A stretch of DNA of 64,000 nt from Fuerstiella sp. (GTDB taxonomy: Bacteria; Planctomycetota; Planctomycetia; Planctomycetales; Planctomycetaceae), in NCBI GenBank assembly GCA_022843805.1, contig JALHMY010000011.1, forward strand, positions 1 to 64,000, given 5' to 3'. The notes under the pieces are model-generated. The model had not been told where the DNA came from, made no database searches, and saw only the letters and a program-made list of their open reading frames with translations. The position numbers and the translations under genes were made by a program. Below are positions 1 to 51,875 of the stretch, piece after piece; the first letter of the stretch is position 1, and each line of letters begins with the position of its first letter.

Positions 1-35
1 ATTCCGCATAGGGCCGATCAACATGACCGGCCCCT

Positions 36-605
36 TTGCACCCAGTCCACAAAGCGGAAAAGTTCAACGCACGATCTATGCGTCGGCTAATCGCCAGACG
101 CATAGATCGCAATTTGTTAGGTTCCACTGAGCTTCTTTGCGTCGTACCCCACGATCCGAGATTTGGTTGGTATTTATACGGCGTATTGAAGCTGTCAAGC
201 ACGGTCCGCCAATTGAACCCAGTTTCGACCGGATCAACGCATCCGCGAGTTTCGAGGGATGATGTGTCCAAAGTGTTGATCCCTTGGGTTAATGATCCAG
301 TCAATGCAGGAAACTATCTCCGCCAAGCACAAGTTGCATCCTTTGAAGCAGACCGATTGGCAACGGCAGCAAGGCTTCTGGTGGAAGCCCTTGTCGAGCG
401 TCAGATCAATGAAGAGGACCTGACGTGTGCGCAGCAAGCTCTTCAGCAAGGCGATCAAACATTTGATCGAGCAATTCTGTCACGAATCACGGTGGCTGGC
501 ATTGATGTCGCTGGGATGCCCGCAGTGTTTCCCAATCTCGATGCGCTTTATGCGGCTATCGACGAATCCAATTGCATGCATCCGAGTAATGGAGTCGCCA
601 CATGA
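36..605 (+). CDS. Type I restriction specificity subunit (HsdS), C-terminal part
   Basis: The protein resembles the second half of a type I S subunit, which sets the DNA target of the methylase and nuclease. It has the LLGSTELL segment, the TGSTHPRVSRDDV motif that opens a central conserved region, and a helical tail with LVEALVERQI. The open frame is only about 189 residues against 400 or more for a normal S subunit, and an in-frame TGA lies at 24-26, so TTG at 36 is only the first start codon of the open frame. The true 5' end may lie upstream in another frame (a frameshift) or the N-terminal target-recognition domain may be lost. The stop overlaps the next start (ATGA), so it belongs to the operon that follows. 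A cognate HsdM could lie left of the window. Family call fairly sure; intactness unknown. Confidence 0.6.
   Translation: MHPVHKAEKFNARSMRRLIARRIDRNLLGSTELLCVVPHDPRFGWYLYGVLKLSSTVRQLNPVSTGSTHPRVSRDDVSKVLIPWVNDPVNAGNYLRQAQVASFEADRLATAARLLVEALVERQINEEDLTCAQQALQQGDQTFDRAILSRITVAGIDVAGMPAVFPNLDALYAAIDESNCMHPSNGVAT
72..109. repeat. 13-bp perfect inverted repeat in hsdS-like gene
   Basis: CGATCTATGCGTC at 72-84 is repeated as its reverse complement GACGCATAGATCG at 97-109, with a 12-nt loop. It lies at the start of the HsdS-like open frame, exactly where similarity to S subunits fades. It may be a recombination or insertion scar, or a hairpin in the mRNA. Confidence 0.7.
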
Positions 606-1846
606 CCGTTGCTTCGGCGGCAATTGGGACGGTTAGGGATCTGCTCACAAGCGGTGAGTCATCGAGCGGAGCATTATTTGCGCTGACGGAACCGGTACAG
701 TTGGGGCTCTGGAACCACGACACGTCGACCGGCCGCGTTATGGCTCACGCTGGCTTGGTTCAGCTTGCAGCCAAGTTACCGAATACCGAAGAGACAATCG
801 CGGCTGCGTTCGCCTGCCAAGCGGGGCTGCGGTCCGCTTGGATTCAGATTATCGCTGCTCGACTTCGCGAAGCTGGCAAACGCCGCGACGCGGCAGAGTT
901 GTGCCAGGCCATCGACACGCTCGGCGAAGCCAGCCGCCGAATTCGCGACGAACTACCTCATTCCAGTCTGCAAGCGACCGGTCACGCGACACTCGAAACG
1001 GGGCTCTTTGGTGCTTCAGCGGAACAAGCGGTCGTCTGGCCGAAGTTGCTCCGTGTGATTGGTGCTACAGCGGAATTAATCGAAGGGCAACGCGGCCAGG
1101 CCGTGACTGCGCTGCCAACAGTCGAACCGCTCGATCCCAAGCGGACCTGGTGCAGCGGTCGCCTACTACAAATGCCGGGGGTCGATGGAACCGGGCCTCA
1201 AGAGCTGACGTTTGTTCTCATGGGGAACTGCGGGCCATTTTCGGAAGCCGAACAAGTCGGTGGCGACATTGAGTCACAAGCTGTCATGCGGTGGGTGCTG
1301 TGTCGCCCCTGGATCATGCTGCTGGCGCAAGTTGTCTTCGTCCAGGAAGCCTGGGAAGCGGAACAAATCTCCGGTCGCCTAACTCTGGAATTGGCCGAGG
1401 ACCAACTTGCCAATCCGTATGAACCAAGCCGTGTCGACGTCGTGGTCACGACACCGGAGGGTGACGAGATCCTCTGCGGCACTCTGGCTGACCTGGTTCG
1501 CCGCGTTTTAGCTCGGCTCGGTGTGACGCTTCTAGCCCGGCCTGAGGACGCGGCACAACTCGACCAGCGGTTGGCCTCCGTTGTGCGTTTGCTCCTGGAA
1601 AAGAAGATCTGGCGGTTTGAACCCGGTGCAGGCGGCGGACGTCGCCCCGGATTCGTGGTCGACGACGAGTTCTCGACCAGTTGCTATCGAGCCTTCGGCA
1701 GCAAGTATTTTTACCGACTGGGAAGCGTGCTGACCGCCGCGATCCGCTCCACTTGCGAACAATGGGCACGCGACAAACTGAGTGAATCAAGCACGACGCG
1801 AGGACGCGAGCTGCCGGACTATGTGGCGGAGCGAGTGACCGGATGA
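602..1846 (+). CDS. Uncharacterised 414-aa protein of the HerA/NurA operon
   Basis: I do not recognise this family. The protein is soluble, with no signal peptide or membrane segment. The N-terminal third (about residues 60-130) is Ala/Arg-rich and helical. The middle is mixed alpha/beta. Residues about 300-390 have a possible winged-helix pattern (LVRRVLARLG, then a basic GGGRRPGF turn). Its ATG overlaps the HsdS-like stop by four bases and its own stop overlaps a 19-codon leader ORF, so it is translated within the operon. It may be a structural or DNA-contacting partner of the following ATPase; this is inferred from position only. Confidence 0.75.
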   Translation: MTVASAAIGTVRDLLTSGESSSGALFALTEPVQLGLWNHDTSTGRVMAHAGLVQLAAKLPNTEETIAAAFACQAGLRSAWIQIIAARLREAGKRRDAAELCQAIDTLGEASRRIRDELPHSSLQATGHATLETGLFGASAEQAVVWPKLLRVIGATAELIEGQRGQAVTALPTVEPLDPKRTWCSGRLLQMPGVDGTGPQELTFVLMGNCGPFSEAEQVGGDIESQAVMRWVLCRPWIMLLAQVVFVQEAWEAEQISGRLTLELAEDQLANPYEPSRVDVVVTTPEGDEILCGTLADLVRRVLARLGVTLLARPEDAAQLDQRLASVVRLLLEKKIWRFEPGAGGGRRPGFVVDDEFSTSCYRAFGSKYFYRLGSVLTAAIRSTCEQWARDKLSESSTTRGRELPDYVAERVTG

Positions 1847-1902
1847 AACCAATCAACACCATGAGCGACGGACGCGCGACACGAAAGCGAGAGACGCTGT
1901 GA
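1843..1902 (+). CDS. 19-codon coupling mini-ORF between two operon genes
   Basis: An ATG at 1843 overlaps the upstream stop (ATGA) and the frame ends with TGA at 1900-1902, overlapping the GTG start of the 1424-aa ATPase (GTGA). It encodes a basic 19-residue peptide. This exact bridging suggests ribosomes pass from gene to gene without dissociating. The peptide itself may have no function. Confidence 0.35.
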   Translation: MKPINTMSDGRATRKRETL

Positions 1903-4900
1903 GCGTGGAAAAGAAAAAACACAAATGGGCTGCCGGCGGCGTATCGGGCTATCCGCTCACGCATCCGATTGTCGGCCAGACGAAGTTCTTCAACCAGTTC
2001 CAACACTTCATCCATCTGGTGGACGAAGAGTCAGAAAAGTTCGCGCACGTCTTCGCCATCATCGCCCAGTGGGGTATCGGTAAGTCGCGTCTGGCTTATG
2101 AACTGATGAGCCAGATCAACGACACGTCGCCTGGTTGGTATGTGCGGGATGCCGCCAGCAATCTGGCCAAGGCGCAGCTCTTTCACAACGATGCAGACCG
2201 AGACCAATACCTCGGCCTTTACATCCGCTACGCTCAAGTGGCGACCGAGTCTCACAACATCGACAACTGGTTCGGCTACGGTCTTTACAAAGCGCTGCTG
2301 CCGTTGACCAAGGGTGAATTCGACACATCGATTCAGGGACAGATCGCCAAAGAAGCGTACGACCGACTGCTGGTGCGCGGATTCGACGAAAAGAAACTGG
2401 CCGTGGCCCTGGAAGTCTCAGCTAAACATAGTGACGAGAACCTCTACGAAGACGCGACCCTGGTCACAAGGCTCTGCCAGGCGGCGTATGCGTACCTTCA
2501 GGAATTCGGCATCAAGTACGTCCTGATCGCACTCGACGAACTGGAAACGGCCGCCGAAGCGGCGACTTACGGACTCGAAGTCGAGGAGATGAAGTATCTC
2601 GATGGCCGTGCCATCAAGCTGATTGGCAAGGCGATCAAAGAAGAAGACCCGCGCGGCAAACTGCCGTGGCTCCGGTACGTGGCCCTCTGCTCGCCCGCCA
2701 TCGGCAACGAACTGCGGGAAATTCGCAGCACCGCTCGACGGTTTGAATTGGTCGAACTGTCGCAGAACGCCTTCGCCGACGTCAGCAGTTTCGTGCAGCT
2801 CCTGAAGGACGATGATCGGCTGAGTGAAAGCTACCCGTCCGGCCTGGTGGAAGCAGCGTACGCAATGAGCGGTGGGAACTTCGGTTGGTTCAACGTGGCA
2901 ATGGCCAACATTGACGGCGTGATCAGTGGCCGCCGTGCGAAGCGGGAACCGACTGACGGCACCGTCGGTAGTTTGTTCGATGAAGCCGTCCGTGTTTCCA
3001 GCCGCATGAGCGAGTATGTGCTGGACCACCGGGCCATCGAAGAACTCAACGTGCCTCGCGAGTTTCGCGACACCGCCCGCGAGTTGCTTTACGGGGAATT
3101 GCCCGTTCCGCTGAGTCAATGGTCCGACGAGCAACGCACGGCGTTGCTGGCCGGCACGAATGAGTATGGCGAGCCACTCGCGATTCGTTATCACCGGGTC
3201 GAATGGTCGGATCAGGACATCAGTCGGGCACTGCGGGCAGGCAAGTTCACTCGCGGCGATGGCGACGAATGGACCCTGAGTGGCGTCGATCAGCCGCTCG
3301 ACCGCTCTCAGTTGATCGCCAACCTGGCGACCTACTCGATTCACGAGACCAAGGGTGCAGTCCAATCGGGCGGGCGATTTGTCCTGCTGGTGCCGACGAG
3401 CGCGGGCGATTTCGTGCAGTTGGTGTCGATGCTGTACCCGCATCCGGCGGCTGAGGATGCTGCGCGGGCGATTTGGCGAGAACTCGTCGGAACCGACGCC
3501 GTGCCGGCCGAAACAGCGACGCACATCGGTCCCAGCATCGACATGCTGGGACGGTTGAACCTTCGGTTCCGTCGACAAGGGACGACGTCGCTCATTTTCC
3601 GGGAACCCGACCAAAGCGCAGCTCACGAAGCCGCCATGAAGGCATGCAAGGGGCAGAGCGAAGCAGATCGGGCACGACAGATTTTGACCGGGGCCATGCG
3701 TTCGCTCGACGAGAACTGGGAATACGACGCCGTCGATGCGGGACTGAAGGGCGACCACGTTGCGATCACGACCAGTCCAGGTGGACGCGGCAAGCCCGGC
3801 GGTCTCGTCACGTTTCGAGGCCTTTATCTCCATCCCGATGGAAAGGTGATCTTCGCCTGGGTGCGAAGCGTGCGAGATCTGGAAGAACTCTGCAACAAGG
3901 CAACGACGCAGTTTGCGACTCAGGGGCGAATTCCAGTCGTCGCGTTCACTTCGTCACGGCACTTGGTCGAGCAGTTCGCGGAACCGACGTCGCAATTGCT
4001 CAAAGATGCCCGCGACTACTTGTTGCTTTACCAGCTTTCATCCCGCGAAGAATACGTCCTGCATCCGATTGGTCTCCCGAAGAAAGAATGCAAGGGATTC
4101 CAGATCGTGACGCAGCGGTTCACGACGGCATTCTCCAACCGACTGCAATCACTGCTTCGACCACTTCGTGATTCGATCCACTCCTGGCGACGTGACCTCG
4201 ACACGCGAGGACGCATCGCCTGGCCAATGCGCGCCAGCGGTGTTCTCAAGGACGAAGACCGCGACAAGCTGTTTCGGGCGTTCCGTTACTTATTCGTCGA
4301 GTTGTCAGTTCCCAAGTCGCTCGCCGCCCTCGACGAGAAAAGCGGCGTCAATGTGCAAGAGATCCTGGAGATCCTCGGACGGATGAAGGTCTCGCCGCAA
4401 GCCAAGGCGGCTGGTTATCACGACGCCGAGCGATTCGGATTGTTTACGACTCTCGACGAAAATGCCGAGCCCCAATTGCCCGCCTTCTTACACCGGCTCT
4501 GCGACTGGCTGGTCTCACGCGGACAGGAATGGTCTTACGGCGCTGCGGAACAGGAATGGTTCTGGGGTTACACCTGGGAAGGGGCCAAGCCCCTCGATGT
4601 ATTCATTCAATGGATGGCGCTGTTGTGCGAGACTGGATTCGCTCAGGAGAGTTCCGCCGCCACACGGAAGAACGACAAGCGATACCGTCTGGTGAAGCGC
4701 AGTGCGATTCGCGGTGCATTGACTGAAGCCAGGAATTGGCTGAACGACGATTACCCGGCAATCGTTGAAAAAATGAAAGCGGTCTTCGGCGAAGGTAAAG
4801 TCGTCGACTATTTCGCGTCTCTGACCGCGATCCGACCGGGAACCAAGACTCGTGATGCCAAGCAGCGACTCGATGATGCGGAAGCCAGCCTGAATGGACT

Positions 4901-6173
4901 GGATGTCGCTGAATCTGCGTGGAAAGACGCGAAACAACCAGCAGAGCACCAGGCCAAATTCATCGAATGTTCTAAGCGGCGGTTGCAATCGCGGCAGAAT
5001 ATCTCTTTTGTCTACCGTGCCGACGGCTATGGCGAACTGCAACACGACGACACCTTGAAGATGCTGAATTTTGAGAATGACCTCGAACCACTCTGGAAGC
5101 GGATCGGTCAGGCGAGTCTGTTCGTCGATTTCGCACTCGGTGCCAAGCAACGCATCATCGACCGCGTTGGGCGATTGAGCACGGAACTGCACGACGCCGT
5201 GACCGGCGTGAAGGGATTTCCGATCCAGGTCTTCACTCGTTCACTCGCGAAGATCACGAACATTTTGGAAGGTTCCATCGGTACCTCGGAACCGGAAGGC
5301 TCCACTCAGAGACTCCAATACACCGCACCGGGAACGCTTGGTCATTCGTTGAAGGAATTGAAGGTTGGCCAGGCCACCGAAAAACTCGGCCAGCTCGCCG
5401 ACGAAGTGGGTATCCGCCTGGACTCTGATGCGGAAGTCTCATTGGCTGAGATTACGGGAAGCATCGTCCAGAGTTTTCATGATCTGGTGAAGGACTTTCA
5501 GCGAGAGCGGCAACGTCTGGACGATCTCGACTCTCGTCTGACCTCACTGAAGGCGGAGCTTGATGATGCTCCAAGTGACTTCACCTATCCTCCGTCACTT
5601 CCCGCTCTCGGTGACTTGTTGGCGCGACCGGCTTTGATCGATAGCGCGTTGAGCGAGACACTGGCCGAGGATGTCGAAAGCCTGATTTCCGAGCACGAGC
5701 CTTCATCCCGTCTGGGGAACTTCCATCCCCTGATGGCATCGGCCAAAGGTTTGCTGGCCGAACCGAAGAGTGCTCTGGGGAGATTGGCCGGGCAAGTGGC
5801 AACGCTGGAGAACTCGGCAACGGGATATCGCCAGGTCTTACTGGATTCGGACGAGTTGAGATCAGTCGAGGGTGCGTTTACGGCACTCCTGCAATCTCAG
5901 CGTAAGAATCCCGAAAAATCGCTCGACATGCCTGATCTCAAGCGGGCGGGCAGCCTCAAGTCGGCAAAGGAACTGGTTACGTCACGATGCACGACTTGGC
6001 CAGCGAAAGGCGACGTTTTGCTCACGGGTACGGGCGTTACTTTCGACGCATGGGCGGGTCTGGTTAGGGATCTCGCCAATCGACAAAAGCCGACGATGAC
6101 TAGCCAGCAAATCCAGAGCTTGGTCGATCATGGCTTTATCGAGGTGACTTATCGGCTGGGGGGTGGAGCATGA
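1899..6173 (+). CDS. Large P-loop ATPase (1424 aa), probable defence ATPase
   Basis: A very large ATPase. Walker A is AQWGIGKS at residues 56-63 and Walker B is YVLIALDELE at about 207-216, giving an STAND/AAA-like core near the N-terminus. The remaining 1100 residues have no motif I can name. A helical, charged stretch around 1190-1230 (FQRERQRLDDLDSRL) is likely coiled coil. Size and layout recall the giant ATPases of BREX (PglY/BrxC) and Dpd-type systems, but I see no family signature that would settle it. GTG start at 1899, coupled to the mini-ORF. Its stop overlaps the next gene by ATGA. Inferred role: an ATP-driven sensor or scaffold of the surrounding system. Confidence 0.75.
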   Translation: MSVEKKKHKWAAGGVSGYPLTHPIVGQTKFFNQFQHFIHLVDEESEKFAHVFAIIAQWGIGKSRLAYELMSQINDTSPGWYVRDAASNLAKAQLFHNDADRDQYLGLYIRYAQVATESHNIDNWFGYGLYKALLPLTKGEFDTSIQGQIAKEAYDRLLVRGFDEKKLAVALEVSAKHSDENLYEDATLVTRLCQAAYAYLQEFGIKYVLIALDELETAAEAATYGLEVEEMKYLDGRAIKLIGKAIKEEDPRGKLPWLRYVALCSPAIGNELREIRSTARRFELVELSQNAFADVSSFVQLLKDDDRLSESYPSGLVEAAYAMSGGNFGWFNVAMANIDGVISGRRAKREPTDGTVGSLFDEAVRVSSRMSEYVLDHRAIEELNVPREFRDTARELLYGELPVPLSQWSDEQRTALLAGTNEYGEPLAIRYHRVEWSDQDISRALRAGKFTRGDGDEWTLSGVDQPLDRSQLIANLATYSIHETKGAVQSGGRFVLLVPTSAGDFVQLVSMLYPHPAAEDAARAIWRELVGTDAVPAETATHIGPSIDMLGRLNLRFRRQGTTSLIFREPDQSAAHEAAMKACKGQSEADRARQILTGAMRSLDENWEYDAVDAGLKGDHVAITTSPGGRGKPGGLVTFRGLYLHPDGKVIFAWVRSVRDLEELCNKATTQFATQGRIPVVAFTSSRHLVEQFAEPTSQLLKDARDYLLLYQLSSREEYVLHPIGLPKKECKGFQIVTQRFTTAFSNRLQSLLRPLRDSIHSWRRDLDTRGRIAWPMRASGVLKDEDRDKLFRAFRYLFVELSVPKSLAALDEKSGVNVQEILEILGRMKVSPQAKAAGYHDAERFGLFTTLDENAEPQLPAFLHRLCDWLVSRGQEWSYGAAEQEWFWGYTWEGAKPLDVFIQWMALLCETGFAQESSAATRKNDKRYRLVKRSAIRGALTEARNWLNDDYPAIVEKMKAVFGEGKVVDYFASLTAIRPGTKTRDAKQRLDDAEASLNGLDVAESAWKDAKQPAEHQAKFIECSKRRLQSRQNISFVYRADGYGELQHDDTLKMLNFENDLEPLWKRIGQASLFVDFALGAKQRIIDRVGRLSTELHDAVTGVKGFPIQVFTRSLAKITNILEGSIGTSEPEGSTQRLQYTAPGTLGHSLKELKVGQATEKLGQLADEVGIRLDSDAEVSLAEITGSIVQSFHDLVKDFQRERQRLDDLDSRLTSLKAELDDAPSDFTYPPSLPALGDLLARPALIDSALSETLAEDVESLISEHEPSSRLGNFHPLMASAKGLLAEPKSALGRLAGQVATLENSATGYRQVLLDSDELRSVEGAFTALLQSQRKNPEKSLDMPDLKRAGSLKSAKELVTSRCTTWPAKGDVLLTGTGVTFDAWAGLVRDLANRQKPTMTSQQIQSLVDHGFIEVTYRLGGGA

Positions 6174-7000
6174 CTCATCGCCCCATTTGGTTGCTGCGAT
6201 CATTGGCGGCCCACGCTCGCGGGAAGGTGCTTTCAGAAGCAACCGGCGCGATCGGCATCGAATCCTTGCCGAACGAGTTTGGACTTTGCATGGCGTTTGG
6301 CTCGGACTTTCAGACGGCTGACATCTCTACTCAGCAAGCATGGGTGAATTGGACGGCACTTTCCGGCCGAACACTCTTGCTCATTCCGCCATTCAACGTG
6401 ACTGAGTGCAAACAGCCGGTTTCCTGGCGAGCCTTTCGTCCGCAAAAGCCAGAACCTATCGCAGCCGATCATCTCGGCAAGTTGATCGCGAATGAGGTGA
6501 GATTTGAAATCGCAGGGACACTTCAAACGGCTGTTGAAGTCATTGGAGAGTGGAAGGGCGGCGGTGTGCATACCGCCTACTATCGCAAGCATCCACACTC
6601 GGGGCTGTTCGCGATAACGTGCCTGCCGCTCTGGTCGCTCACGGTTCTCGATCACCGTCGTACTATCCAGGACTGGCTGGAAACACTGGGCAGTCTGGCG
6701 GGCGAGTCAGCTCCGACGGTTTCTGTTGAGGAAATGACGACGGAGTTTCGGCCGAATCGTGACCATTTCGCGATGATGCTTCACTTGTGCGAACGCGACT
6801 TCGCCAGCACCGATGAAGCGCTGGATCGACTCTCCGAGTCACTGGTATTTGCAATTCCTGAAGCATCAGCCCGGCAATGCCTTGTCTCATTAGAGGAAGC
6901 CGGCTTGGTGACCAGCGGCAAACTGACTGACAAAGGACGCGAGATGCTGCTCGGTAGTCCGTATGCCGTCTACGCCACCGCGATTGCGAGGACTCGATAA
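6170..7000 (+). CDS. Uncharacterised 276-aa protein, possible C-terminal winged helix
   Basis: I do not recognise the family. Residues 1-170 look like a mixed alpha/beta domain with several Trp. Residues about 200-270 look like a winged helix-turn-helix: a helical segment, then SARQCLVSLEEAGLV as a likely recognition helix, then the LTDKGREML wing. The gene is wedged between the large ATPase (ATGA overlap) and the NurA-like nuclease (TAATG overlap), so all three are probably made together in fixed ratio. It may be a DNA-binding or adaptor subunit. Confidence 0.7.
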   Translation: MTHRPIWLLRSLAAHARGKVLSEATGAIGIESLPNEFGLCMAFGSDFQTADISTQQAWVNWTALSGRTLLLIPPFNVTECKQPVSWRAFRPQKPEPIAADHLGKLIANEVRFEIAGTLQTAVEVIGEWKGGGVHTAYYRKHPHSGLFAITCLPLWSLTVLDHRRTIQDWLETLGSLAGESAPTVSVEEMTTEFRPNRDHFAMMLHLCERDFASTDEALDRLSESLVFAIPEASARQCLVSLEEAGLVTSGKLTDKGREMLLGSPYAVYATAIARTR

Positions 7001-8160: not shown

Positions 8161-8174
8161 ACTGAAAGTGAGCT

Positions 8175-9872
8175 ATGAAACATCAAGTTCTGGGTACGCT
8201 CGTCGGAAACACCGGAGATCCGACGAAGGTGATGATGGTGATGTCGTCGTCGTTCAGTGCGCGGCGTGGTGAATTCGTCCGTATTAGCCATCAGGAACGG
8301 GACAGCGAACCGGCCTGTGATGTACTTGGCAGAATTTCGAGCATCAGCCGAGTTAATGCGTTGTATGACGCCGGCATGGGCAGTTCCCTCACGGAACTGG
8401 AATTGATGCCAGGAGCGCGAGTCACCGGCGAAAGCGTCATCGGAAAGATTGAATTGATCGGTTTCAACGACCCGACCACCGGGCAGATTCGCATTCCGCG
8501 ACGTCCTCTCGACCCAGGGGCGAAGGTCCAGACGGTCGACTACCACTTTTTGAGTGCATTCTACGAGTTCGACGAACAGTCGGGGCTGCATATCGGTAAC
8601 CTGGTTGGCTACGACCGGGGCGACAATATCGTTCCCGTTTATTTGGACGTCAACAAGCTAGTGACCGAGCACTTGGCGGTGTTGGCCATGACCGGGGCCG
8701 GCAAGTCGTACACTGTTGGTCGCATCATCGAGCGATTGGTCGCACTCCATAACGGGACGGTGATTGTCTTCGACCCACACGGTGAATACGGCCGAGCGTT
8801 GCTAGGCGGCAAGATTCAGTTCGGCTCGCATGAGTCTGGCATCGATGATCCACGCGATCAGCGATCACTCCCCATGATTCAAGAATCTCTCCGGCGGCTC
8901 ACCGAGGCTGGTGCAGGCATCATGGTCTACACGCCGCAGAGTCCGGCATTTCGCCACAAGTACGCGGGCAAGAATCGAGAGTTGGCGTTGCAGTTCGACC
9001 ATTTCGAGATGGACGATATTAGCCAGATTCTTCCGGGCCTGACGGAGCCGCAGCAGCGGGTGCTCGACGTGGCCATTCGATATTGGCGATCCGTCGATGC
9101 CACAGAACCTCGCGACATCAATCGGCTGAGACACTTTCTCAGCGATGGTCTTGACGATGTCCGACAATGGGATGAGTTGAGTCAAGCCGAAGCAGCTGCT
9201 CTCAACAGCCGCAGTGCTGCGGTGGCGTCCATGAAGCTTTCACGAGTACTTGCCGAAGCACAGGCGTTTTACTCTGCCGCTCTGGCCGAACCAACGAACA
9301 TCTACGAGATGACGGGACGCCCAAGTGACAGAAACGGCAAACTTGTTGTTATTGATCTGCAAGGCTTGAGTGACACCACGAAACAGATCATCACGGCTCT
9401 GATTTCCAGCGAAGTGCTGCAAGCAGCATCCAGCAAATCAGATCCGATTCGACCCTGCATGTTGATTTACGAAGAGGGGCACAACTTCGCGCCGGCAGGA
9501 CAGGCCGCTGTAAGCCATCGAATTATCCGCAAGATTGCGGGAGAAGGTCGCAAGTTCGGCGTGGGCTTCGCGGTGATCAGTCAGCGTCCATCGAAACTTG
9601 ATCCCGATGTAACGTCCCAGTGCAACACACTGATCGTTATGCGACTCAAGAACCCCGATGACCAGCGATTCATCGCTCGCACGTCCGACATGGTCAGTCA
9701 GGCGGACCTTGACGAACTGCCAAGCCTATCGACTGGCGAGGCCCTGATTTTTGGTCGTTCCATTGCTGCGCCGCTATTGGTGAAGATCGGCACGAAGGCA
9801 TTAATGCACGGCGGCGAATCGCCCGATGTTCTGCGAGTGTGGGGGAGACCAAATGGCAGTGCCGGCAGTTGA
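8175..9872 (+). CDS. herA: HerA-like hexameric DNA translocase
   Basis: A FtsK/HerA-superfamily ATPase that pumps double-stranded DNA. Residues 1-165 form the beta-rich HAS-barrel region. Walker A is AMTGAGKS at 171-178, followed by VIVFDPHGEYG at 197-207. Walker B lies near residue 430 (MLIYEEGHNF). The HerA sensor region follows (GVGFAVISQRPSKLDPDV), then LKNPDDQRFI. Length 565 aa is typical. It directly follows the NurA-like gene, as in classical herA-nurA pairs, but lacks the mre11/rad50 neighbours of archaeal repair operons; kinase, PLD and SNF2 genes surround it instead. Its last 20 bases overlap the next gene. Confidence 0.9.
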   Translation: MKHQVLGTLVGNTGDPTKVMMVMSSSFSARRGEFVRISHQERDSEPACDVLGRISSISRVNALYDAGMGSSLTELELMPGARVTGESVIGKIELIGFNDPTTGQIRIPRRPLDPGAKVQTVDYHFLSAFYEFDEQSGLHIGNLVGYDRGDNIVPVYLDVNKLVTEHLAVLAMTGAGKSYTVGRIIERLVALHNGTVIVFDPHGEYGRALLGGKIQFGSHESGIDDPRDQRSLPMIQESLRRLTEAGAGIMVYTPQSPAFRHKYAGKNRELALQFDHFEMDDISQILPGLTEPQQRVLDVAIRYWRSVDATEPRDINRLRHFLSDGLDDVRQWDELSQAEAAALNSRSAAVASMKLSRVLAEAQAFYSAALAEPTNIYEMTGRPSDRNGKLVVIDLQGLSDTTKQIITALISSEVLQAASSKSDPIRPCMLIYEEGHNFAPAGQAAVSHRIIRKIAGEGRKFGVGFAVISQRPSKLDPDVTSQCNTLIVMRLKNPDDQRFIARTSDMVSQADLDELPSLSTGEALIFGRSIAAPLLVKIGTKALMHGGESPDVLRVWGRPNGSAGS

Positions 9873-10446
9873 GGCAATCCGAAAAGAGACAAGCGAGTTA
9901 TCGCTCGCTAAACGACACCTCGGGCTTTGGACCAACCGAGGAGTCGCGGACGCTTCGTGCGCACTCCACAGCATCGGAATGACTTACTGGAACCTCATGG
10001 GGACGATGTTTGGATTCGACGCGATCGCAGAAATGCCAGCCCCAGTTGAGGGTGCATACGGGTTTGTCGGCGACGATGTCCGAAACGATTCGGCGTGGTT
10101 CTCGCCAAGATCTGAGCATCCGTCAGTCATTGTCGAGTTCGAGAGATATTCGGGGCAATCGGATGAAGGAAAACTGTCCGGAAAGGTGAACAGTCTCCTG
10201 TTGGCCCATCATCGCTGGCTGACCGTACCAAAGACCTTGATCCTGGCTTATTGGACAAAGGGGTTGGCAGCGCTGCCCGATCATGATGCCCTGCGTCGAA
10301 GGGCGAAACAGGGTTTCGAGACGAGTGCAAAGGAACGCGTAACTGGAGTCTCCGACGCTGCCGTGTTGTTTTTTCAGTTCGTGCTGCAATCGGCGGACGA
10401 CACGCGATGGCGATTGACGCAGGTGATCGAGCGAGGTGTGCAATGA
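9853..10446 (+). CDS. Small protein with possible PD-(D/E)XK nuclease fold
   Basis: A 197-aa soluble protein. An ATG at 9853, seven bases after a purine-rich GGGGGAGA, is preferred over an upstream in-frame ATG at 9826; both lie inside the end of herA. Residues about 90-130 contain a strand VIVEFERYSG followed by conserved-looking Lys, then an alpha helix, as in the E-x-K strand of PD-(D/E)XK nucleases. An upstream Asp (NDSAW) could be the first metal ligand. This fold guess is weak without a profile search. The stop overlaps the kinase start. Confidence 0.6.
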   Translation: MAVPAVEAIRKETSELSLAKRHLGLWTNRGVADASCALHSIGMTYWNLMGTMFGFDAIAEMPAPVEGAYGFVGDDVRNDSAWFSPRSEHPSVIVEFERYSGQSDEGKLSGKVNSLLLAHHRWLTVPKTLILAYWTKGLAALPDHDALRRRAKQGFETSAKERVTGVSDAAVLFFQFVLQSADDTRWRLTQVIERGVQ

Positions 10447-11912
10447 CTGACCGCAATCGCTTCTTCATTCCCCGTGAAGATAAACTGCTTGGTGAGCGAT
10501 ACCAACTTCTCGAACAGCTCGGCGACGGTTCGTATGGCTGGGTATGGCGAGCTGAAAAGCTCGTCACGGGCGACATTGTTGCGCTCAAGATCCCCAAAGA
10601 ACAGGGAGCCAGCAACGACGAACTCGCTGAAGGGTCTGCTCTCGTAAAGAATAAAGTGTCACATCCCAACGTCGTAAGCATCTACGATATGGGAAGAGTC
10701 CCACCGCAACGCGAGTGGTACGTGATCGAGATGGAGTATTTCCCCAGCCAGACGTTGGCACAGCTTCTCGACTCTGGAGATCAGGGATTTGTTTCAAGCT
10801 ATGCAAGGCTGCTTGGGATTTATGAGCAGGTTCTGACTGGCGTTGCTTACATTCATTCTCTGGGGATGTCACACGGAGACATTAAGCCACAGAACGTGCT
10901 CGTCTCAGGCGACCAGGTGAAGATCACTGATTTTGGGTGCAGCATTCTTCCCGAGGACATGTACGCTCGCACGCGCGATAACGGCGGAACAATACTCTAT
11001 TCCGCGCCGGAAGTTGTCGGTTCGATCCGACGTGGCCGCAGCCGCAGCGAAGTGTTTAGCGCCGACATCTATAGCCTTGGCGTGCTGCTTTATCATCTGG
11101 TTACGTCACGCCTGCCGCATGACACGCTCAGTCAGGTCGCTCGCCACTCGCCATTCCCCAGGCCACGCGAAATCAATCGGTCTGTCTGTCCATCGCTAGA
11201 ACACCTCATCCTTCGCTGCCTGGCACTTGACCCCGCAGATCGATGGCCCACTGTCACGGAGTTACTCGAATCGTTCAAGCAAGCACGGCGTGCCCAGTTG
11301 GACTACGTTCCCGAGAGAGCTGTTTCCGTCAAACGCGAGCCAAGTGCGGATTGGTCGAGCGATGTTGTTAGCTTGATCGACAACTCTGACTTTGCCCGGG
11401 CTGAAAACATTGCCCGAACTCAATTCGAGTTGTCTGGCGACAAGCACGCCTTCCTGCTGATGGTTTCGTCCGCAGTCCGCGATGGTCGAGTATTCGATGC
11501 CAAACGGGAATTCGATGCTCATCCGGAGTTGTTGTCGGAAGCGTCATCGATTCGACGCGATTTGCGAGAGATCGCGTTGAAATGTTTCCTGGAGACTCGT
11601 GACATCGAACGAGCACGCAACCTGGTCGAAACGATGGTTGCTGATGACGGTGAGACGCCAAACATTCTTCTCAAACGGGCGTCAATCTTTGGGCTGCAAG
11701 CACAGTACCACGAAGCGTCCGAGATTCTCTTGCGGTTGAACCGTGATTTTCCTGGACGTCCTGCGATCCTTCGCCGCCTTGTGGTTGTATTTGAACAACT
11801 CCGGGATATCGGAAAGGCCAGTGCCTTTCTGAAGGCGTATGGCCGGGATATCCCGAATGACACGTGGGTTTTGGAGAAGCGCGAGCGATTTGCAGCGTTG
11901 GGATTTAGGTAA
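10443..11912 (+). CDS. Ser/Thr protein kinase with C-terminal helical repeats
   Basis: A Hanks-type kinase, 489 aa from the ATG at 10443 that overlaps the previous stop (ATGA). Kinase features: glycine loop LGDGSYG at 26-32, catalytic Lys49 in VALKI, catalytic loop HGDIKPQNVL at 144-153, DFG at 163-165 and SAPE at 187-190. The HRD Arg is Gly, so it is a non-RD kinase. Residues about 300-489 are helical with TPR-like spacing. No membrane segment or PASTA repeats, so it acts in the cytoplasm. Kinases are core parts of defence systems such as BREX type 2 (PglW) and Stk2. A signalling or trigger role is inferred. Confidence 0.9.
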   Translation: MTDRNRFFIPREDKLLGERYQLLEQLGDGSYGWVWRAEKLVTGDIVALKIPKEQGASNDELAEGSALVKNKVSHPNVVSIYDMGRVPPQREWYVIEMEYFPSQTLAQLLDSGDQGFVSSYARLLGIYEQVLTGVAYIHSLGMSHGDIKPQNVLVSGDQVKITDFGCSILPEDMYARTRDNGGTILYSAPEVVGSIRRGRSRSEVFSADIYSLGVLLYHLVTSRLPHDTLSQVARHSPFPRPREINRSVCPSLEHLILRCLALDPADRWPTVTELLESFKQARRAQLDYVPERAVSVKREPSADWSSDVVSLIDNSDFARAENIARTQFELSGDKHAFLLMVSSAVRDGRVFDAKREFDAHPELLSEASSIRRDLREIALKCFLETRDIERARNLVETMVADDGETPNILLKRASIFGLQAQYHEASEILLRLNRDFPGRPAILRRLVVVFEQLRDIGKASAFLKAYGRDIPNDTWVLEKRERFAALGFR

Positions 11913-12011
11913 ATGGCTTAGAAATCCGCACTCGCCCGCCCTCATGGGGTTAATTCCGCTTGTCCTCAAGGCAACTCATTCAGGGCTGAAACACAGGGAA
12001 CAACAAACCAG

Positions 12012-13364
12012 ATGCCGACCACGCTTGAAGTTCTCGACGCTCCTCCTGCAGGATTGTTCTGGTCGGCCCCGCTGGGGCTGGATTCCGATTTTACTGCCGA
12101 AGACCCGCTCGCGCTCGATTACCTCGGGCAGCAAGTGGGACTCTGGTTGTTTCAGGGTTTCACGACGCGGACGGGGAGAGCCCAGAATTATGCGGTGGTC
12201 CTCTACGGCCTGCACCTCGCCGACAAAGCTGTTCGGAAATACGGCTATCTTGGCGACGACGAGACCCGAACCCGTTTGTTCGAGCGCTGGGAAAGATTCT
12301 GGGCGCTCGCCACTCTTGAGTCTCGGAATGGGCAACTCACGCGCGGAGACGAAGACGCCATGCGGGGCGTCCGAGGCGCGGCTCGTGCATGGTTTCCCGG
12401 TCCCCGACCGTTGCCGCTCGACTTCCCACTCATCTCACGTCAAAACGAACTAGGCGGACTCGGCGCGTATTTGTCGTCCCTTCGCGACTACGGTCTGGTA
12501 TTTTCCGGCTCGCTACGCGTGACGCCGGCAGCGATCGCAATTCTTGATGCCTTTTGGTCAGAACAAGGCGAGAGAGAAACGACTCATTTGTATGAGGATT
12601 ATGCGATTCAGGCACTCGACTTGACGCGGACGAAGATCGACCGAGAAAGCGGACGGCTCACTTTAGCAGGGATCGGGAAAGCGTCCCGACTCTCGTCACT
12701 CGTGCAGCGTAATCGCACCAAGCAGCAAACGCGGCTATGGGAGGTTCTGTTTCTCGGCGCGCGTGACGGTTCCACGCAGCCGCTCGCCGACTGCCTTATT
12801 GCAGCACATCGTGACGGCATCGACGATCCAGAACCTTTTTTCGAAAAACTGCTCGCAGGACGATGGCGAACCCTTACGCCTGGTGTATCTGCTAAAGTCG
12901 AGGTTGCATTGGCATTCGGACGTGTCGCGCGTTTACTCCTCGCCCGCTTCGACCGGGCCTACGGGTACGTCGATCAACATGGCTGGGTCGCGGATTCTAA
13001 TGCGGTCGCTGATGCATCTTTCCCTCCCGACGAAATGGATGCATTGCGGTCAGCTAGTGCCGAACTCCTGCAAGCAACGGAAAGCGGGCGGTTTCGCAAA
13101 CTTCAGTTCCACGGATCGGAACTACTCACACTTCTGACCAAACTCTCTCACGCAGGAACTCGTGACTGCTTCGATCAGCTACTGCATTTCCACCGTAGCG
13201 TGCAGAGATCCCGTCGCGGCGGCGGGGCATGGTTACGTGAGGAACAGGGGAAAGTTGTGATGCAGGTGGCCGGCTACAGCGGCTACAAAAGCGACGCGGC
13301 ATTTCCGAGCTTCAAACTCAATGTGGTTCGGCAGCTCCTTGCAGATCTCGGGAGGCTCACGTGA
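12012..13364 (+). CDS. Uncharacterised 450-aa protein preceding PLD/SNF2 pair
   Basis: I do not recognise this family. Soluble, mostly helical with many Trp and Arg, no catalytic motif visible. The final 90 residues are basic and glycine-rich (RSRRGGGAWLREE, then GYSGYKS), which could contact nucleic acid. A 99-bp gap separates it from the kinase, the largest in the operon, so a secondary promoter is possible. It overlaps the PLD gene (GTGA). It probably forms one functional unit with the PLD and SNF2 proteins that follow. Confidence 0.75.
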   Translation: MPTTLEVLDAPPAGLFWSAPLGLDSDFTAEDPLALDYLGQQVGLWLFQGFTTRTGRAQNYAVVLYGLHLADKAVRKYGYLGDDETRTRLFERWERFWALATLESRNGQLTRGDEDAMRGVRGAARAWFPGPRPLPLDFPLISRQNELGGLGAYLSSLRDYGLVFSGSLRVTPAAIAILDAFWSEQGERETTHLYEDYAIQALDLTRTKIDRESGRLTLAGIGKASRLSSLVQRNRTKQQTRLWEVLFLGARDGSTQPLADCLIAAHRDGIDDPEPFFEKLLAGRWRTLTPGVSAKVEVALAFGRVARLLLARFDRAYGYVDQHGWVADSNAVADASFPPDEMDALRSASAELLQATESGRFRKLQFHGSELLTLLTKLSHAGTRDCFDQLLHFHRSVQRSRRGGGAWLREEQGKVVMQVAGYSGYKSDAAFPSFKLNVVRQLLADLGRLT

Positions 13365-15520
13365 AGATCGCATCCGGACGTGCGCTTGACCGATTGCCGC
13401 GGGAAGAGACTTGCCTCGGGGCGGTTTTTACGTCGTACAGTTTTGATCCCGGTTTTTTTGAGGATCACGTACTTCGAGCCGTGTTACGCCTGACCTCCGA
13501 TCCGGTCGAACAAGGAGCGCGCTATCATGGCGAAGCTCGCAGCGCTCTTCAGGAATCACCCGTCGCCGTAATCGTGGACGCGGGCGAACGCCGCCCCGGC
13601 CGGCGGCTTCCCTACGATTTGCTCGAAGTCTCCGACCTTGTTTTCCATCCGAAATCTGCACTGCTGCTCTACAAGGAGCAAGCCTGCCTCATGGTGGGTT
13701 CCGGTAACTTGACGTTTTCCGGATACGGTGGGAACACGGAACTCTTTATTTCCCTCGATCTCCAGTACGACACACCTGCGGACGTTTCCCTCCTTCGCGA
13801 ATTCGACGCGCATCTCAACCGGATTGCTTCCCTTGCACGCCAGAGCGGCACCCAACTCTCGCTATTTCGTCAGGAACTCGCTCGCCGACTCGGTACCGCA
13901 CCGGACGAATCCGTACTCTCCAAAGTTGCTTTGCTCGACTCGTCGACGGCTCCGATTATTGAGCAGATAGAGGCTCTGCTTCCAAAAGAAGCCGTCATCG
14001 AAGGCATCGGGATGCTCGCCCCATTCTACGAACGCGATGATGACTGCGACCTGGATGTGACTTCCGTCTTTGGCGCACTTACACCTCGCGTGTCGGCGTC
14101 CGCCGTGTTGGATGTGGGTGTCGCGTGGGAAAATCCTCAAGTATACCCGGATGCGGAAGTCACTCCACTGCAAGTTGGCCTTGGCAAGCTTTGGGCTTGG
14201 GCTCAAGACGGTGATACTGGACGTGTTGTGGAATACCTCGTTCCGACTGCCGTCGGCCCAAATACGCTCGGCTATTTCGATCAGCAGGGAAACGGCCGTC
14301 GTTGGCCAGTCGAGGAAGCCTTTGTGGCCGTGGAACAACGAAGTCTATGGATGCTGCCCCAGCCGATCGCCTTCGCGCCTCAACAGACGCTCGAAGCGGC
14401 GAAGTCCCGATTCGCTGATGTCCGGATTTGGCTGCACCCGGCGACCCGACTGCTCGAAGGCCGACCGGTCCACCGCCCGCTTCACGCCAAGCTCCTGCTC
14501 ATCAACTTCTCAGCCGGAACATCCCGAGGCACGCTCGTTCTCATTGGATCGGCGAACATGTCGCGCCGCGCACTCCTGCTCAAGGCAGGCCCTGGGCAAG
14601 GCAATGCTGAACTCGGGCTCGCCTTTCGCCTCGATGGCGAACGCAATCTCATCGACTTTGTACCAGAATTAGTGTGTGCCGCGTCGTCCGTCCTTGAGTT
14701 GAACGAAAGGGAGTTTCCTGAAGTCACTCGCAACTATGCGATGATGATCGAACAGGCGATTCACGATCCGACGGAACGTACCCTTGCGATTGCGTGGGCG
14801 AAGGAGGCTCAGGATGTTCCGCGATGGCGTCTGACCTACTGCGGAAACGAGCTTGCCCACTCATCTGCGCCACCAACGCCGTCGCTTCTCGTCAAAGATT
14901 TCGTGTTGCAACCCACGTCAGCAGAATTGGTCCTTCACGTAGAGGGACGTGAGTTTCCGGTTCCGATCCTCGTCACTGACCTCATCGCGCTCCCCGCAGT
15001 ATCAGCCGGTACTGGCATTGGACTTAACGAACTTCTGATGCTTCTTGGACGTCGAATTGGCGCAGAGCGGGCGATCCAGATTGCCGAGCGAAATATGGCA
15101 ACCGGAGAAGACGCTGATGCGTTGGCTGCATTCTTTGGTGAAGGATTCGGGCCGAACGACGTGTTCCGTGCGTGGTGGGCGGTGGCTGAGGATCTGCGTG
15201 ATCCTGACCTGTCCGTGTCGGCGTTTCGCCTTCGGCTCGAAGGCGCACTTGGAGTTAGTGCTGCCTGGGCTCGCATGCTCGACACCACGTCGAACGATCA
15301 ATCGCTGCAGCCATCCGAAGTCTGGTTTTACGGTGCCGAACTCTTGCGTGCATTAGGCGAACTTGAACTGCCACCTGGGGTTGATCGATCCGCGAAGGAG
15401 GAAGTCCTCGCGGCATTCACGAAACGTGTCCAATCCGATTTGGGTCGCCTGAACATTGACGACAAAAAACGCCCATGGATGCAAAGAATCCGAGCGTTCT
15501 ATCGGGAGGCCCACTCATGA
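13361..15520 (+). CDS. Phospholipase-D-family protein with two HKD motifs
   Basis: A 719-aa PLD-superfamily phosphodiesterase. It has two half-sites: H96-P-K98 followed by GSGN at 113-116, and H375-A-K377 followed by GSAN at 396-399. Both retain the His and Lys needed for catalysis. No signal peptide, so a nuclease role is more likely than lipid hydrolysis. Residues 420-719 are an extra domain I cannot name. PLD proteins next to SNF2 helicases recur in DISARM (DrmC) and Dpd (DpdK) systems. GTG start overlaps the upstream stop, and its stop overlaps the SNF2 start. Confidence 0.85.
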   Translation: MKIASGRALDRLPREETCLGAVFTSYSFDPGFFEDHVLRAVLRLTSDPVEQGARYHGEARSALQESPVAVIVDAGERRPGRRLPYDLLEVSDLVFHPKSALLLYKEQACLMVGSGNLTFSGYGGNTELFISLDLQYDTPADVSLLREFDAHLNRIASLARQSGTQLSLFRQELARRLGTAPDESVLSKVALLDSSTAPIIEQIEALLPKEAVIEGIGMLAPFYERDDDCDLDVTSVFGALTPRVSASAVLDVGVAWENPQVYPDAEVTPLQVGLGKLWAWAQDGDTGRVVEYLVPTAVGPNTLGYFDQQGNGRRWPVEEAFVAVEQRSLWMLPQPIAFAPQQTLEAAKSRFADVRIWLHPATRLLEGRPVHRPLHAKLLLINFSAGTSRGTLVLIGSANMSRRALLLKAGPGQGNAELGLAFRLDGERNLIDFVPELVCAASSVLELNEREFPEVTRNYAMMIEQAIHDPTERTLAIAWAKEAQDVPRWRLTYCGNELAHSSAPPTPSLLVKDFVLQPTSAELVLHVEGREFPVPILVTDLIALPAVSAGTGIGLNELLMLLGRRIGAERAIQIAERNMATGEDADALAAFFGEGFGPNDVFRAWWAVAEDLRDPDLSVSAFRLRLEGALGVSAAWARMLDTTSNDQSLQPSEVWFYGAELLRALGELELPPGVDRSAKEEVLAAFTKRVQSDLGRLNIDDKKRPWMQRIRAFYREAHS

Positions 15521-18411
15521 CTAAGCGAACGCGGGAATGGCTGCGTAGTTTCTTGAACCTGGGCGCTCGCGCCGAGCAAGATGGCATTCCGACTGCCGAC
15601 GTCGAGCGTCAGGAAGACACTGTGCTTCGGGCGCTCGATATGCTTGATGACCGCCCCGGGATTCTGCTGGCGGATGAGGTCGGGATGGGAAAGACGTACG
15701 AGGCACTTGGAATCGCTGCTGTCACGCATCACGAGCGTCGCAGCAGCCACCTCGTTGTCGTGACTCCTGGCCCCGACCTGAACAGCAAATGGTTTGCCGA
15801 ATTCTCCCGTTTCCGCGAGAGCCACATGTACGACTTTGGCGAAAACGTCGTCGAAGTCCGCCATCTCTCCGAATTTGTAGAAAATGTTCGGCACCATCCG
15901 GTCGTCGTTGCCCCAGTCACTATGTTCCAGAGCGGTCGTGGTTCCGGAGCACAGTCGTACCTCTTGTCACTCTACTTCCATTGGAAAGGGCTTCACGGTC
16001 ACACAGCAAACGCGATCATGGCGAGATTCCGGGACGGCGAGCAGGAACGGATCAATGTGCAAACGGCGAGATTTCTCGACATCTTCAGTCTCGATCAAGT
16101 AACTCCACATTTACGTCAGGCCTTTCGCCGTGGGAACGCGGGCGGCGCCGCTGGACTCGACGATCTCTACGAGAAGGGCGGTCTGTCTGCATTTGAGAAT
16201 CAAGTCCCCGTACGCAACGCACTATATCGAGCGAGGTTTGTGCTGACAGGTCGACTGATGCCGATGATTGATCTTCTCATTGTCGATGAGGCCCACAAGC
16301 TTAAGAACCCAGGCTCGCTGCGCACACGGGCTATGCAGGAAGTCTTTTCCCGTAGATTCCGGAAAGCCCTGTTTCTCACGGCCACGCCGTTTCAGCTCGA
16401 CGTCTGCGAACTTCGGGAAATCTTCTCACTCTTCGGGCGAGCTAAGGGAGCCCCCGATGACTTGGAGCAGCAGGTCGAAGGTTTGTTGGCAAACGTCGCT
16501 GACTACCAACAACACTACGAAGATTTCCAGCGAACATGGTCCTCACTCGATCCTATTGTCGCAGGTCGGTTCAGTGAGGCCTACGACCGTGACCCAGCCG
16601 CAGCCAACCAACTCGATGAGCCAGCTATTGCCGTAATTCTCCGACAGATTGAATCTCTTCGGGAACTCAAGGAGAAATCCATTGAACCAGGTTTCAGGCA
16701 ATGGATGATCCGCAGCCTTCGTGAAGATAAGCGGACTTACCGCCGACATCTGCCCAAAGACATCCGCGCAACTGGCGTCGAAGTCCTTCCGTTCCTGATC
16801 TACGAGCGATTCATCGCCGAGCTGTTCCGGCGGCACCGGCAGACCCACAAAGCAGCCGTTGAGATCAATATGGTCTCGTCCTATGCAGCCGCTCAACAAG
16901 GGACCATTCTCGCCGCCGGCGATGGAATTCCCGTTGAGGCTGAGGTCTATCGAGTGCTCCTCAGGGAAATTCTCGGTGAAATGGAATCCGGGGGACAGGA
17001 TCACCCAAAACTGCGAGACGCCATCAGCGACGCCCTGGACGCCGCTGATCGGGGTGAGAAGACTCTAATTTTTTGTTCTCGAATTGCGACTCTGGAGCAA
17101 TTGCGCCGGGAGCTAGACAGTATCTGGGAATGCCGGCTCCTTGAGCGTTGGCGCAAGATTTATCCAGAAGCTCATGCAGAAGAGATCTTCGATACGCGGG
17201 AAGAAGACGCCACGCGCCAACGCGGGCGTCATTCTCAACTGCAGGCGAGATTCCACCGGCCACAAGACGCCCTTTATCTCGCGCTACGGGAGTTCCATTG
17301 TCGTACTGTAATCCTTGCTGGGACGTGGGCTTTCAATCGGCTTCCCGAGATCTTGATTGAGGCAAACAGCCTTCTTCGGACGGTGCGTGTCGGAAAGACG
17401 GCTGCGGAAAGGATTGACTATCAGGTTGCCAAACGGTGCGTCGAGCATGCCGCTGCCGTTTCATGGATGAAAGAGAATCGCGACGGCACGCCTTCGGAAT
17501 CGCTACGGAACCTCATCGCTCCTGATTACATTCGATTTGGTTTGGACCTTGATGAAGATGAATTCGAAAGCGATTCGATGGGAGATGAAGTCCCACGATG
17601 GGACATCTCAGAACGTGTGGCACGAATGGTACTGGGGAACGGGGATTCACTTTGGGAGGCGTTAACGGGATCGCTGGAGAAGCTGTCCCCCAACATGCGA
17701 GTCAGGTTAGTAGAGCAGCTGGCACGATACCTTACTTACAAACAGGTGCCGTTTTTGGCAGATCTTCTCGCGGAAGCCCTCGCGGCAGGATTGTCTATGG
17801 AACCCGTGGTATCGGCCGTGCTTCTCGAATTCATGCCGAAGTTCTGGCGAACGGACACCGGTCAATTGTGGATGAATATGCTTCGTACATTCTTGGAGTA
17901 TTTCGTCCAGCGTGACCCCCACCAACAACTCGAGATTCTCGACGGCCCGATTAAGACCGGCGAATTTGCCCGACATACCCGTGATGGCGAAAGCCGCGAG
18001 CGGCTTCGTGAGGCATTCAACACGCCGCTTTACCCGATGATCCTGATTGCGAATGAAGTCATGCAGGAGGGATTGGATCTGCATAAGCACTGCCGGCGGA
18101 TCGTCCATCACGACCTCGTTTGGAACCCCGCCCAGATCGAGCAGCGTATCGGCCGCATCGACCGCCTGGGATCGCTCACGAATCGCCTTCGAAAGGACGG
18201 TTCGGACGTGACGCTGGACGTTTTGTATCCGGTCATTCGCGGCACAATTGATGAGCGTCTCTTCCGCACTGTGAAAACTCGGGAGAAATGGCTTGAATTC
18301 CTTCTCGGTGCACCGCCGAATTTCGCCGAGTACAACTTCACTGACGAAGAGCCGACTCCCCTTCCCGAGCGGTTAGGTGCCGAACTGTCTATCGATTTGG
18401 GTCCAAAATGA
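15517..18411 (+). CDS. SNF2-family helicase
   Basis: Superfamily 2 ATPase of 964 aa. The start is ATG 15517, eight bases after GGGAGG and overlapping the PLD stop. An in-frame ATG at 15475 is less likely because it lies deep in the PLD gene. Motif I is DEVGMGKT at 53-60, DEAH at 257-260 and motif III LTATPF at about 287-292. The second RecA domain ends with the QEGLDLHKHC and QRIGRIDRLGS motifs. A region of about 350 residues between the lobes is specific to this subfamily. No DUF3883 tail, unlike the helicase at 24-27.6 kb. It probably remodels or translocates on DNA for the PLD nuclease. Last gene of the operon. Confidence 0.9.
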   Translation: MTKRTREWLRSFLNLGARAEQDGIPTADVERQEDTVLRALDMLDDRPGILLADEVGMGKTYEALGIAAVTHHERRSSHLVVVTPGPDLNSKWFAEFSRFRESHMYDFGENVVEVRHLSEFVENVRHHPVVVAPVTMFQSGRGSGAQSYLLSLYFHWKGLHGHTANAIMARFRDGEQERINVQTARFLDIFSLDQVTPHLRQAFRRGNAGGAAGLDDLYEKGGLSAFENQVPVRNALYRARFVLTGRLMPMIDLLIVDEAHKLKNPGSLRTRAMQEVFSRRFRKALFLTATPFQLDVCELREIFSLFGRAKGAPDDLEQQVEGLLANVADYQQHYEDFQRTWSSLDPIVAGRFSEAYDRDPAAANQLDEPAIAVILRQIESLRELKEKSIEPGFRQWMIRSLREDKRTYRRHLPKDIRATGVEVLPFLIYERFIAELFRRHRQTHKAAVEINMVSSYAAAQQGTILAAGDGIPVEAEVYRVLLREILGEMESGGQDHPKLRDAISDALDAADRGEKTLIFCSRIATLEQLRRELDSIWECRLLERWRKIYPEAHAEEIFDTREEDATRQRGRHSQLQARFHRPQDALYLALREFHCRTVILAGTWAFNRLPEILIEANSLLRTVRVGKTAAERIDYQVAKRCVEHAAAVSWMKENRDGTPSESLRNLIAPDYIRFGLDLDEDEFESDSMGDEVPRWDISERVARMVLGNGDSLWEALTGSLEKLSPNMRVRLVEQLARYLTYKQVPFLADLLAEALAAGLSMEPVVSAVLLEFMPKFWRTDTGQLWMNMLRTFLEYFVQRDPHQQLEILDGPIKTGEFARHTRDGESRERLREAFNTPLYPMILIANEVMQEGLDLHKHCRRIVHHDLVWNPAQIEQRIGRIDRLGSLTNRLRKDGSDVTLDVLYPVIRGTIDERLFRTVKTREKWLEFLLGAPPNFAEYNFTDEEPTPLPERLGAELSIDLGPK

Positions 18412-23218: not shown

Positions 23219-23565
23219 TCCATGCACTAGACGATTTATGCCAAGCTGAATGCCCACGTCACCCAATTCACTGTTGCTGTGATTCAGTACCCTTGTCAGG
23301 GACGCTTGCCGGTCACGTCTCGTGCATTGCAACTGCGGTGTATTTCGACGCGGCGGCACATATTGAACATAGCTGGAAAAAAAAGCGGGGAAAGATTCGG
23401 CGACAATCAACACCGCGCACCCGGCGGCCGTCCGACGCATCGACGGAGAAATCCGCCCCGCGGGCCGCGACGTGGACGAAGTCAAAGTCGGGAAAAAGAA
23501 CGCCCAAGATCGTCTGCCCAAGATCGGGAGGGGCGTTGCGGACTCATACCGCGGGGATATCTGGC
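23219..23565. other. Junction between P460 cluster and truncated DUF1016 gene
   Basis: No gene is convincing here. The segment contains a short direct repeat, GCCCAAGATC at 23502-23511 and 23516-23525. On the minus strand the reading frame of the DUF1016 gene continues through it but no longer resembles the family. This is probably a recombination junction. Confidence 0.4.
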
Positions 23566-28435: not shown

Positions 28436-28438
28436 GGC

Positions 28439-29280: not shown

Positions 29281-29283
29281 TTC

Positions 29284-48639: not shown

Positions 48640-48778
48640 GTCTGGCGTGGAGCCAAACGCACGTCGCATTTCCCCTTGCTTGTGACGGCTTATTGCATCC
48701 AGCGAAAATCTCTTGCGCCACCGCAGCTTCTGTTGCAAACTGGCAACCATCGATCAGCTACGGGGAGTATAGACGGAT

Positions 48779-50885: not shown

Positions 50886-50887
50886 TG

Positions 50888-51841: not shown

Positions 51842-51875
51842 GACAGTAGTAATCTCCTGATAAGGAGGCCACTTC

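Follow-up and report, generated by a model that had tools for sequence, protein, structure and literature searches.

The eleven genes that open this planctomycete contig raise the question of whether they form a single undescribed defence system, as the original prediction proposed, or a more composite locus. The window, by which we mean the whole stretch of DNA analysed here, covers the opening 64 kb of contig C11 from a genome (G000) of 9.2 Mb in 172 contigs, with planctomycete MAGs (Rhodopirellula, Planctomyces and Pirellula) as the nearest named relatives. We find that the eleven genes are two adjoining putative defence modules: a MADS-like core and a three-gene nuclease-helicase cassette. 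All eleven open reading frames lie on the plus strand between positions 36 and 18411 (Table 1), and open reading frame, profile and motif checks confirmed both the predicted list of parts and their co-directional operon. The genes had been described as nearly all linked by overlaps, and the junctions are indeed tight, with ATGA at 602/605 and 6170/6173, TAATG at 7000, GTGA at 13361 and, provided that the internal starts given in Table 1 are used, further ATGA junctions at p206/kinase and PLD/SNF2. However, there are also gaps of 52 bp (1847-1898), 14 bp (8161-8174) and 99 bp, the last of which separates the kinase stop (11912) from the open reading frame at 12012; it is the only clear gap and forms the boundary between the two modules.

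Table 1. Features of the locus, in window coordinates unless another contig is named.
Feature	Coordinates	Strand	Remarks
HsdS N-terminal part, ~345 residues	G000:C54:76-1158	minus	C-terminal rest at window 36..605
End of repetitive element inserted in hsdS	1..110	+	24-bp terminal motif 47-70, hairpin ~73-108
HsdS C-terminal part	36..605	+	Specificity_I and MAD5 matches
p414, core protein without assigned function	602..1846	+	no family match
1424-aa P-loop NTPase	1899..6173	+	AQWGIGKS; Walker B LIALDE at residue 209; weakly KAP-like
p276, fast-evolving core protein	6170..7000	+	58% to L006
NurA-like protein, 386 aa	7000..8160	+	profile-profile comparison
HerA-type DNA translocase	8175..9872	+	Pfam DUF87
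p206, possible PD-(D/E)XK-fold protein, candidate nuclease	9826..10446	+	invariant D88...E104-x-E106
Non-RD Ser/Thr kinase, TPR-like C-terminus	10407..11912	+	likely start 10443; last core gene
p450, first gene of separable module	12012..13364	+	PDC-M27A-like by size and position; weak profile match
PLD nuclease, two HKD motifs	13361..15520	+	ZacB / PDC-M27B-like
SNF2 helicase	15475..18411	+	best match PDC-M27C, E = 3.8e-49; likely start 15517

The core comprises, in order, an HsdS-like protein, a small protein, HsdM, HsdS, p414, the 1424-aa ATPase, p276, the NurA-like protein, HerA, p206 and the kinase, and runs from 5301 to 76 on the minus strand of contig C54 and then from 36 to 11912 on the plus strand of the window. 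A Rhodopirellula MAG (L006, JAAYEH010000228.1) carries the complete core in the same gene order, and partial cores in this order were found on two contigs of genome G446 (L007 and L072) and at locus L008. Genome G291 harbors a divergent syntenic core (ATPase, a 286-aa protein, NurA-like protein, HsdS, HerA, a 187-aa protein and kinase, with HsdM upstream) in which hsdS has been relocated to within the HerA part. In both L006 and G446 (L072) the core ends at the kinase: the next gene in L006 is an apparent 6-phosphogluconate dehydrogenase (assigned from sequence, without a profile search), and nucleotide similarity between G446 and the window stops 5 bp past the kinase stop. The gene after the kinase in G291 encodes a PbeA/Dnd-type helicase, which differs from the p450-PLD-SNF2 genes of the window. 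Conservation of gene order outside this element therefore holds for the core but not for the whole eleven-gene set. Upstream of the G291 core (L005 2480-7232) we also observed an RtcR-like sigma-54 activator, a response-regulator-like protein and a 720-aa histidine kinase; a possible HsdS-like domain in the N-terminus of the latter was set aside as faint and borderline.

Three other genomes, representing two phyla, have in turn the p450-PLD-SNF2 genes without the core. They adjoin PglZ and BrxL in G494 (73-81% identity), a distant copy adjoins a BrxC/D ATPase in G421, and a third set is found on a Methylocystis plasmid (34-38% identity). At the G494 BREX locus, a gene for a 1560-aa HEAT-repeat protein lies between BrxL and these genes (L060 7696-12378). 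The domains predicted for the cassette were readily seen, with two HxK...GSxN motifs in the PLD protein and GMGKT, DEAH and QIEQRIGRIDR motifs in the helicase. The PADLOC profiles M27A, M27B and M27C matched the three consecutive genes in this order (E = 0.031, 1e-5 and 3.8e-49, respectively), the M27A match being marginal and unconvincing by itself. In order and size, p450, PLD and SNF2 thus correspond to M27A-B-C of the PADLOC defence candidate PDC-M27, which is among the closest known systems together with the Zac models. The likeness covers the last three of the eleven genes only, and the cassette belongs to a previously catalogued type and travels on its own. Since some relatives carry the core without the cassette and other genomes the reverse, the eleven-gene set joins two modules. 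That all eleven genes are one system, in which PLD and SNF2 act as effectors, would agree with their shared strand and the tight spacing inside each half, but it seems highly improbable given the 99-bp gap at the module boundary, the absence of the cassette from two relatives carrying the core and its presence without the core in three genomes. Because the cassette appears to move from one kind of locus to another, BREX or MADS-like, the fact that genes are neighbours in a defence island can be misleading.

The window begins with an HsdS fragment because it starts at the first base of its contig. The "truncated HsdS" of the prediction is no natural fragment: a repetitive element is inserted in hsdS, and so the assembler broke there. 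A search with the MAD2 family located hsdM, whose presence upstream had been correctly guessed and which the relatives also carry, on contig C54 of the same genome, where the minus strand encodes an HsdS-like protein (464 aa), a 128-aa protein, HsdM (683 aa) and the N-terminal part of HsdS. The first ~25 codons of the window's first open reading frame derive from the repetitive element, and the ends of C11 and C54 carry an identical 24-bp repeated motif in opposite orientation. This motif has 39 copies in the genome and 0 in a reversed control, and the flanking sequence is common to other copies. Joined, the two HsdS parts approximate the length of intact HsdS in the relatives (528 and 537 aa), and it is from this fit, not from reads, that we infer the C54-C11 join. 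With hsdS interrupted, the core may be off or decaying in this genome. The upstream 464-aa protein scored 40.2 as an HsdS-like sequence against a shuffle maximum of 26.1. The repetitive element itself is ~1.2 kb without a long open reading frame (copy at G000:C63:49600-50830; also window 1-110 and G000:C54:1-120), its motifs are often clustered, and one end bears an attC-like hairpin flanked by CCTAAC/GTTGAAC. It could be non-autonomous or integron-related.

The core is rare: of 392 genomes sampled from the phylum, 2 carry it, and of 150 sampled from the order, 3 do so as judged by its HerA. This genome and G446 come from separate genera within one family, and their cores share 88-92% DNA identity while hsdS cannot be aligned. 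HsdM, the ATPase, HerA, p206 and the kinase are 93-98% identical to G446 at the protein level, and p414 is 85% identical to the G446 copy (L007), 68% to L006 and 81% to L008. This pattern points to purifying selection on the core, and hsdS has been replaced as a unit between the two genomes. An unalignable hsdS beside core proteins of 85-98% identity is as expected for a specificity subunit. In comparison with L006, HsdS, p276, p206 and p414 change fast, whereas HerA, HsdM, the NurA-like protein, the ATPase and the kinase change slowly; HerA is 90% identical to L006 and 61% to G291. No similarity was detected between p276 and the 286-aa protein at the equivalent place in G291, nor did homology of p414 and p276 to the G291 proteins rise above shuffles. 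We found no relatives of the ATPase or the NurA-like protein in plasmids, and none of the latter in viral contigs or, beyond noise, in phages. Partial NurA-like matches in G393, G526, G514 and G509 (E = 0.001-0.01) were judged to be noise, and plasmid HsdM relatives were rejected as kin loci on account of operons that are not comparable.

Among the individual proteins, the HerA translocase is certainly identified by its match to Pfam DUF87 (E = 4.5e-43), the kinase carries the non-RD motif HGDIKPQN with VALK, DFG and APE motifs, and the giant ATPase has the predicted P-loop and Walker B motif. The proposed NurA-like nuclease stood in part: homology emerges from profile-profile comparison, but the Pfam NurA model alone did not detect the protein, and its catalytic residues are mostly lost. 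Comparison with archaeal NurA by hhalign, using thin profiles of 3 sequences against 6, gave a score of 37.1 against a maximum of 28.4 in 150 column-shuffled controls, with the aligned stretch covering both the region of motif I and the DxxL motif. The NurA set comprised two haloarchaeal sequences, M. jannaschii, Natrinema and two PDB sequences; the two haloarchaeal sequences alone gave no match, and a three-sequence set that excluded the haloarchaea reached 32.2 in local alignment, with no global match. The 386-aa protein is therefore probably a NurA homologue, an assignment less firm than that of HerA. In the joint alignment, with catalytic positions that we take to be those of published NurA structures, 1 of 4 catalytic residues (Asp, Glu, Asp, His) is retained: Asp148 remains, an invariant Ser67 stands in place of the motif I Asp, and neither the Glu nor the C-terminal His is present. 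The NurA-like protein is thus probably non-catalytic, which casts doubt on a standard NurA-HerA engine for resection. An AlphaFold model of this protein built with 3 sequences reached a pLDDT of 34.

The p206 model was better, though still of middling quality (pLDDT 68.5, pTM 0.71, with the other four models at pLDDT 35-58). Its structural neighbours are mostly restriction-endonuclease-like (BglII, PaqCI, BspD6I, NucC, BamHI, OkrAI and Shedu), each with a Z score of 5 to 6.8, where 6.8 is within chance range for a single structural match, and unrelated entries such as acetyl-CoA carboxylase are intermixed. The spacing of its D88-E104-x-E106 resembles that of what we take to be the BamHI residues D94-E111-x-E113, ExE not being the commonest form of the PD-(D/E)XK motif. 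The model hints at a PD-(D/E)XK nuclease fold for p206. No PDB sequence relative was found for the ATPase, the NurA-like protein or p206.

The best reading of these sequences is that the core may be a rare and undescribed system for MADS-like restriction. With moderate confidence, we favor a modification-guided anti-invader system of MADS-like logic, driven by HerA, with p450-PLD-SNF2 as a separate accessory cassette and a defence function that we infer. HsdM and HsdS, perhaps with the second HsdS-like protein, would methylate host sites and so mark self, and exchange of hsdS would switch the methylated site. The large P-loop ATPase and its fast-evolving partners p414 and p276 could help to sense unmodified incoming DNA, upon which the HerA ring, with the NurA-like protein as a non-catalytic adaptor, would load and pump. 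The PD-(D/E)XK-like p206 might then cut the pumped DNA, with the non-RD kinase acting as a switch that controls cleavage. More tentatively, and with some doubt, we suggest that this could be a new form of immunity in which a HerA ring, a dead NurA adaptor and a BamHI-like (D...ExE) nuclease are gated by the giant ATPase and the non-RD kinase and switched through hsdS.

The remainder of the contig bears on this reading. The segment at 22919-29652 (minus) encodes a helicase that is almost certainly HmaA (1197 aa, 1724 bits, E = 0), next to genes for an IrrE-like M78 peptidase and a protein with a DUF1016 N-domain. This is another defence system, which makes the region a defence island. The protein at 31662-37394 (minus), 1910 aa long, combines methylase-like regions with SF2 helicase regions and is perhaps a single-chain restriction-modification enzyme. 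Further along (45417-62050) lie a TrwC relaxase with helicase, a T4SS coupling protein and a large serine recombinase, which give the contig the appearance of an element that is mobile or conjugative. These transfer genes, along with the role of NurA and HerA as archaeal repair proteins, would suit a DNA repair or plasmid-maintenance operon. However, HsdMS with a hypervariable hsdS, the rarity of the core, its near-identical copies in different genera and the neighbouring Hma defence gene make such a role very hard to credit.

As the original prediction held, the set cannot be assigned as a whole to any named system, with no whole-set match in PADLOC or NCBIfam. No core protein matched PglZ or BrxC profiles of BREX. 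The DISARM set (DrmA, DrmB and methylase) was not found, the similarity being limited to the SNF2 helicase domain and a weak one of PLD to DrmC, and Dpd is represented by helicase-domain similarity to DpdE with no DpdA match. The archaeal NurA-HerA repair pair likewise has a NurA-like gene directly before HerA, but the core's copy has mostly lost its catalytic residues and sits in a methylase operon with a kinase. HerA/FtsK and BREX-related capture systems have in common with the core a HerA-family translocase, a large ATPase and a nuclease, whereas the texts describing them contain no NurA and the core has no PglZ, DUF4007, GNAT or TGT match (PMC10853773, PMC12839542). HsdM scored 836 bits against the ordinary type I family MTase_I of PADLOC and 57 against mad2, HsdS scored 149 bits against Specificity_I, and the type I pairing of HsdM with HsdS is present; no core protein matched an HsdR family in Pfam, PADLOC or NCBIfam. 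These good type I matches, and the existence of methylase-free HerA capture systems (PMC10853773), would allow an HsdM-HsdS modification unit to lie by chance beside an independent capture system. We consider this quite unlikely, as HsdM, HsdS and ATPase-HerA-kinase occur together in the window with C54, in L006 and in G291, the G291 hsdS sits inside the HerA part and HsdR is missing.

The prediction overlooked the nearest relative, MADS, in which HsdM, HsdS, a kinase and a HerA-type ATPase are already found together. Our literature search, which did not extend to the original MADS paper, found no description of the core gene set. That paper reportedly treats MADS-like systems too. We compared MADS (Maestri et al. 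2024) through NCBIfam and PADLOC models and the citing papers PMC12904381 and PMC12322248. The L006 HsdM has MAD2 as its best NCBIfam match (E = 7.6e-33, 114 bits against a cut-off of 720), the L006 HsdS matches MAD5 (E = 9.5e-17, 61 bits against 400), and the kinase matches MAD6 (128 bits against 460), although generic PknB outscores it in NCBIfam while mad6 is best in PADLOC. HerA matches PADLOC mad8 at E = 0.1, with generic HerA matching better. No sampled genome of the order exceeded the MAD2 cut-off, NCBIfam MADS8 (200 positions) is absent from G000 and G291, and the further MADS models had no core match among PADLOC and NCBIfam profiles, a result compatible with remote homology. The same combination of parts, each matching a MADS family, could mark the core as a divergent MADS member, but we think this unlikely, considering that the scores fall far under the curated cut-offs, that HsdM is closer to ordinary type I enzymes and HerA to generic HerA, and that p414, the ATPase, p276, the NurA-like protein and p206 match no MADS model. 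Like MADS, the core unites in one operon an HsdM-type methylase, HsdS, a Ser/Thr kinase and a HerA-type ATPase, and it differs in those five proteins and in an extra HsdS-like protein; it is MADS-like in logic and, on the features compared, falls outside MADS itself. Both MADS and BREX restrict phages under the guidance of methylation, with the cutting step listed as unknown in a 2026 review (PMC12904381, Table 1). HerA, a probably dead NurA and a small candidate nuclease would offer this class of systems a concrete, testable cutting step.
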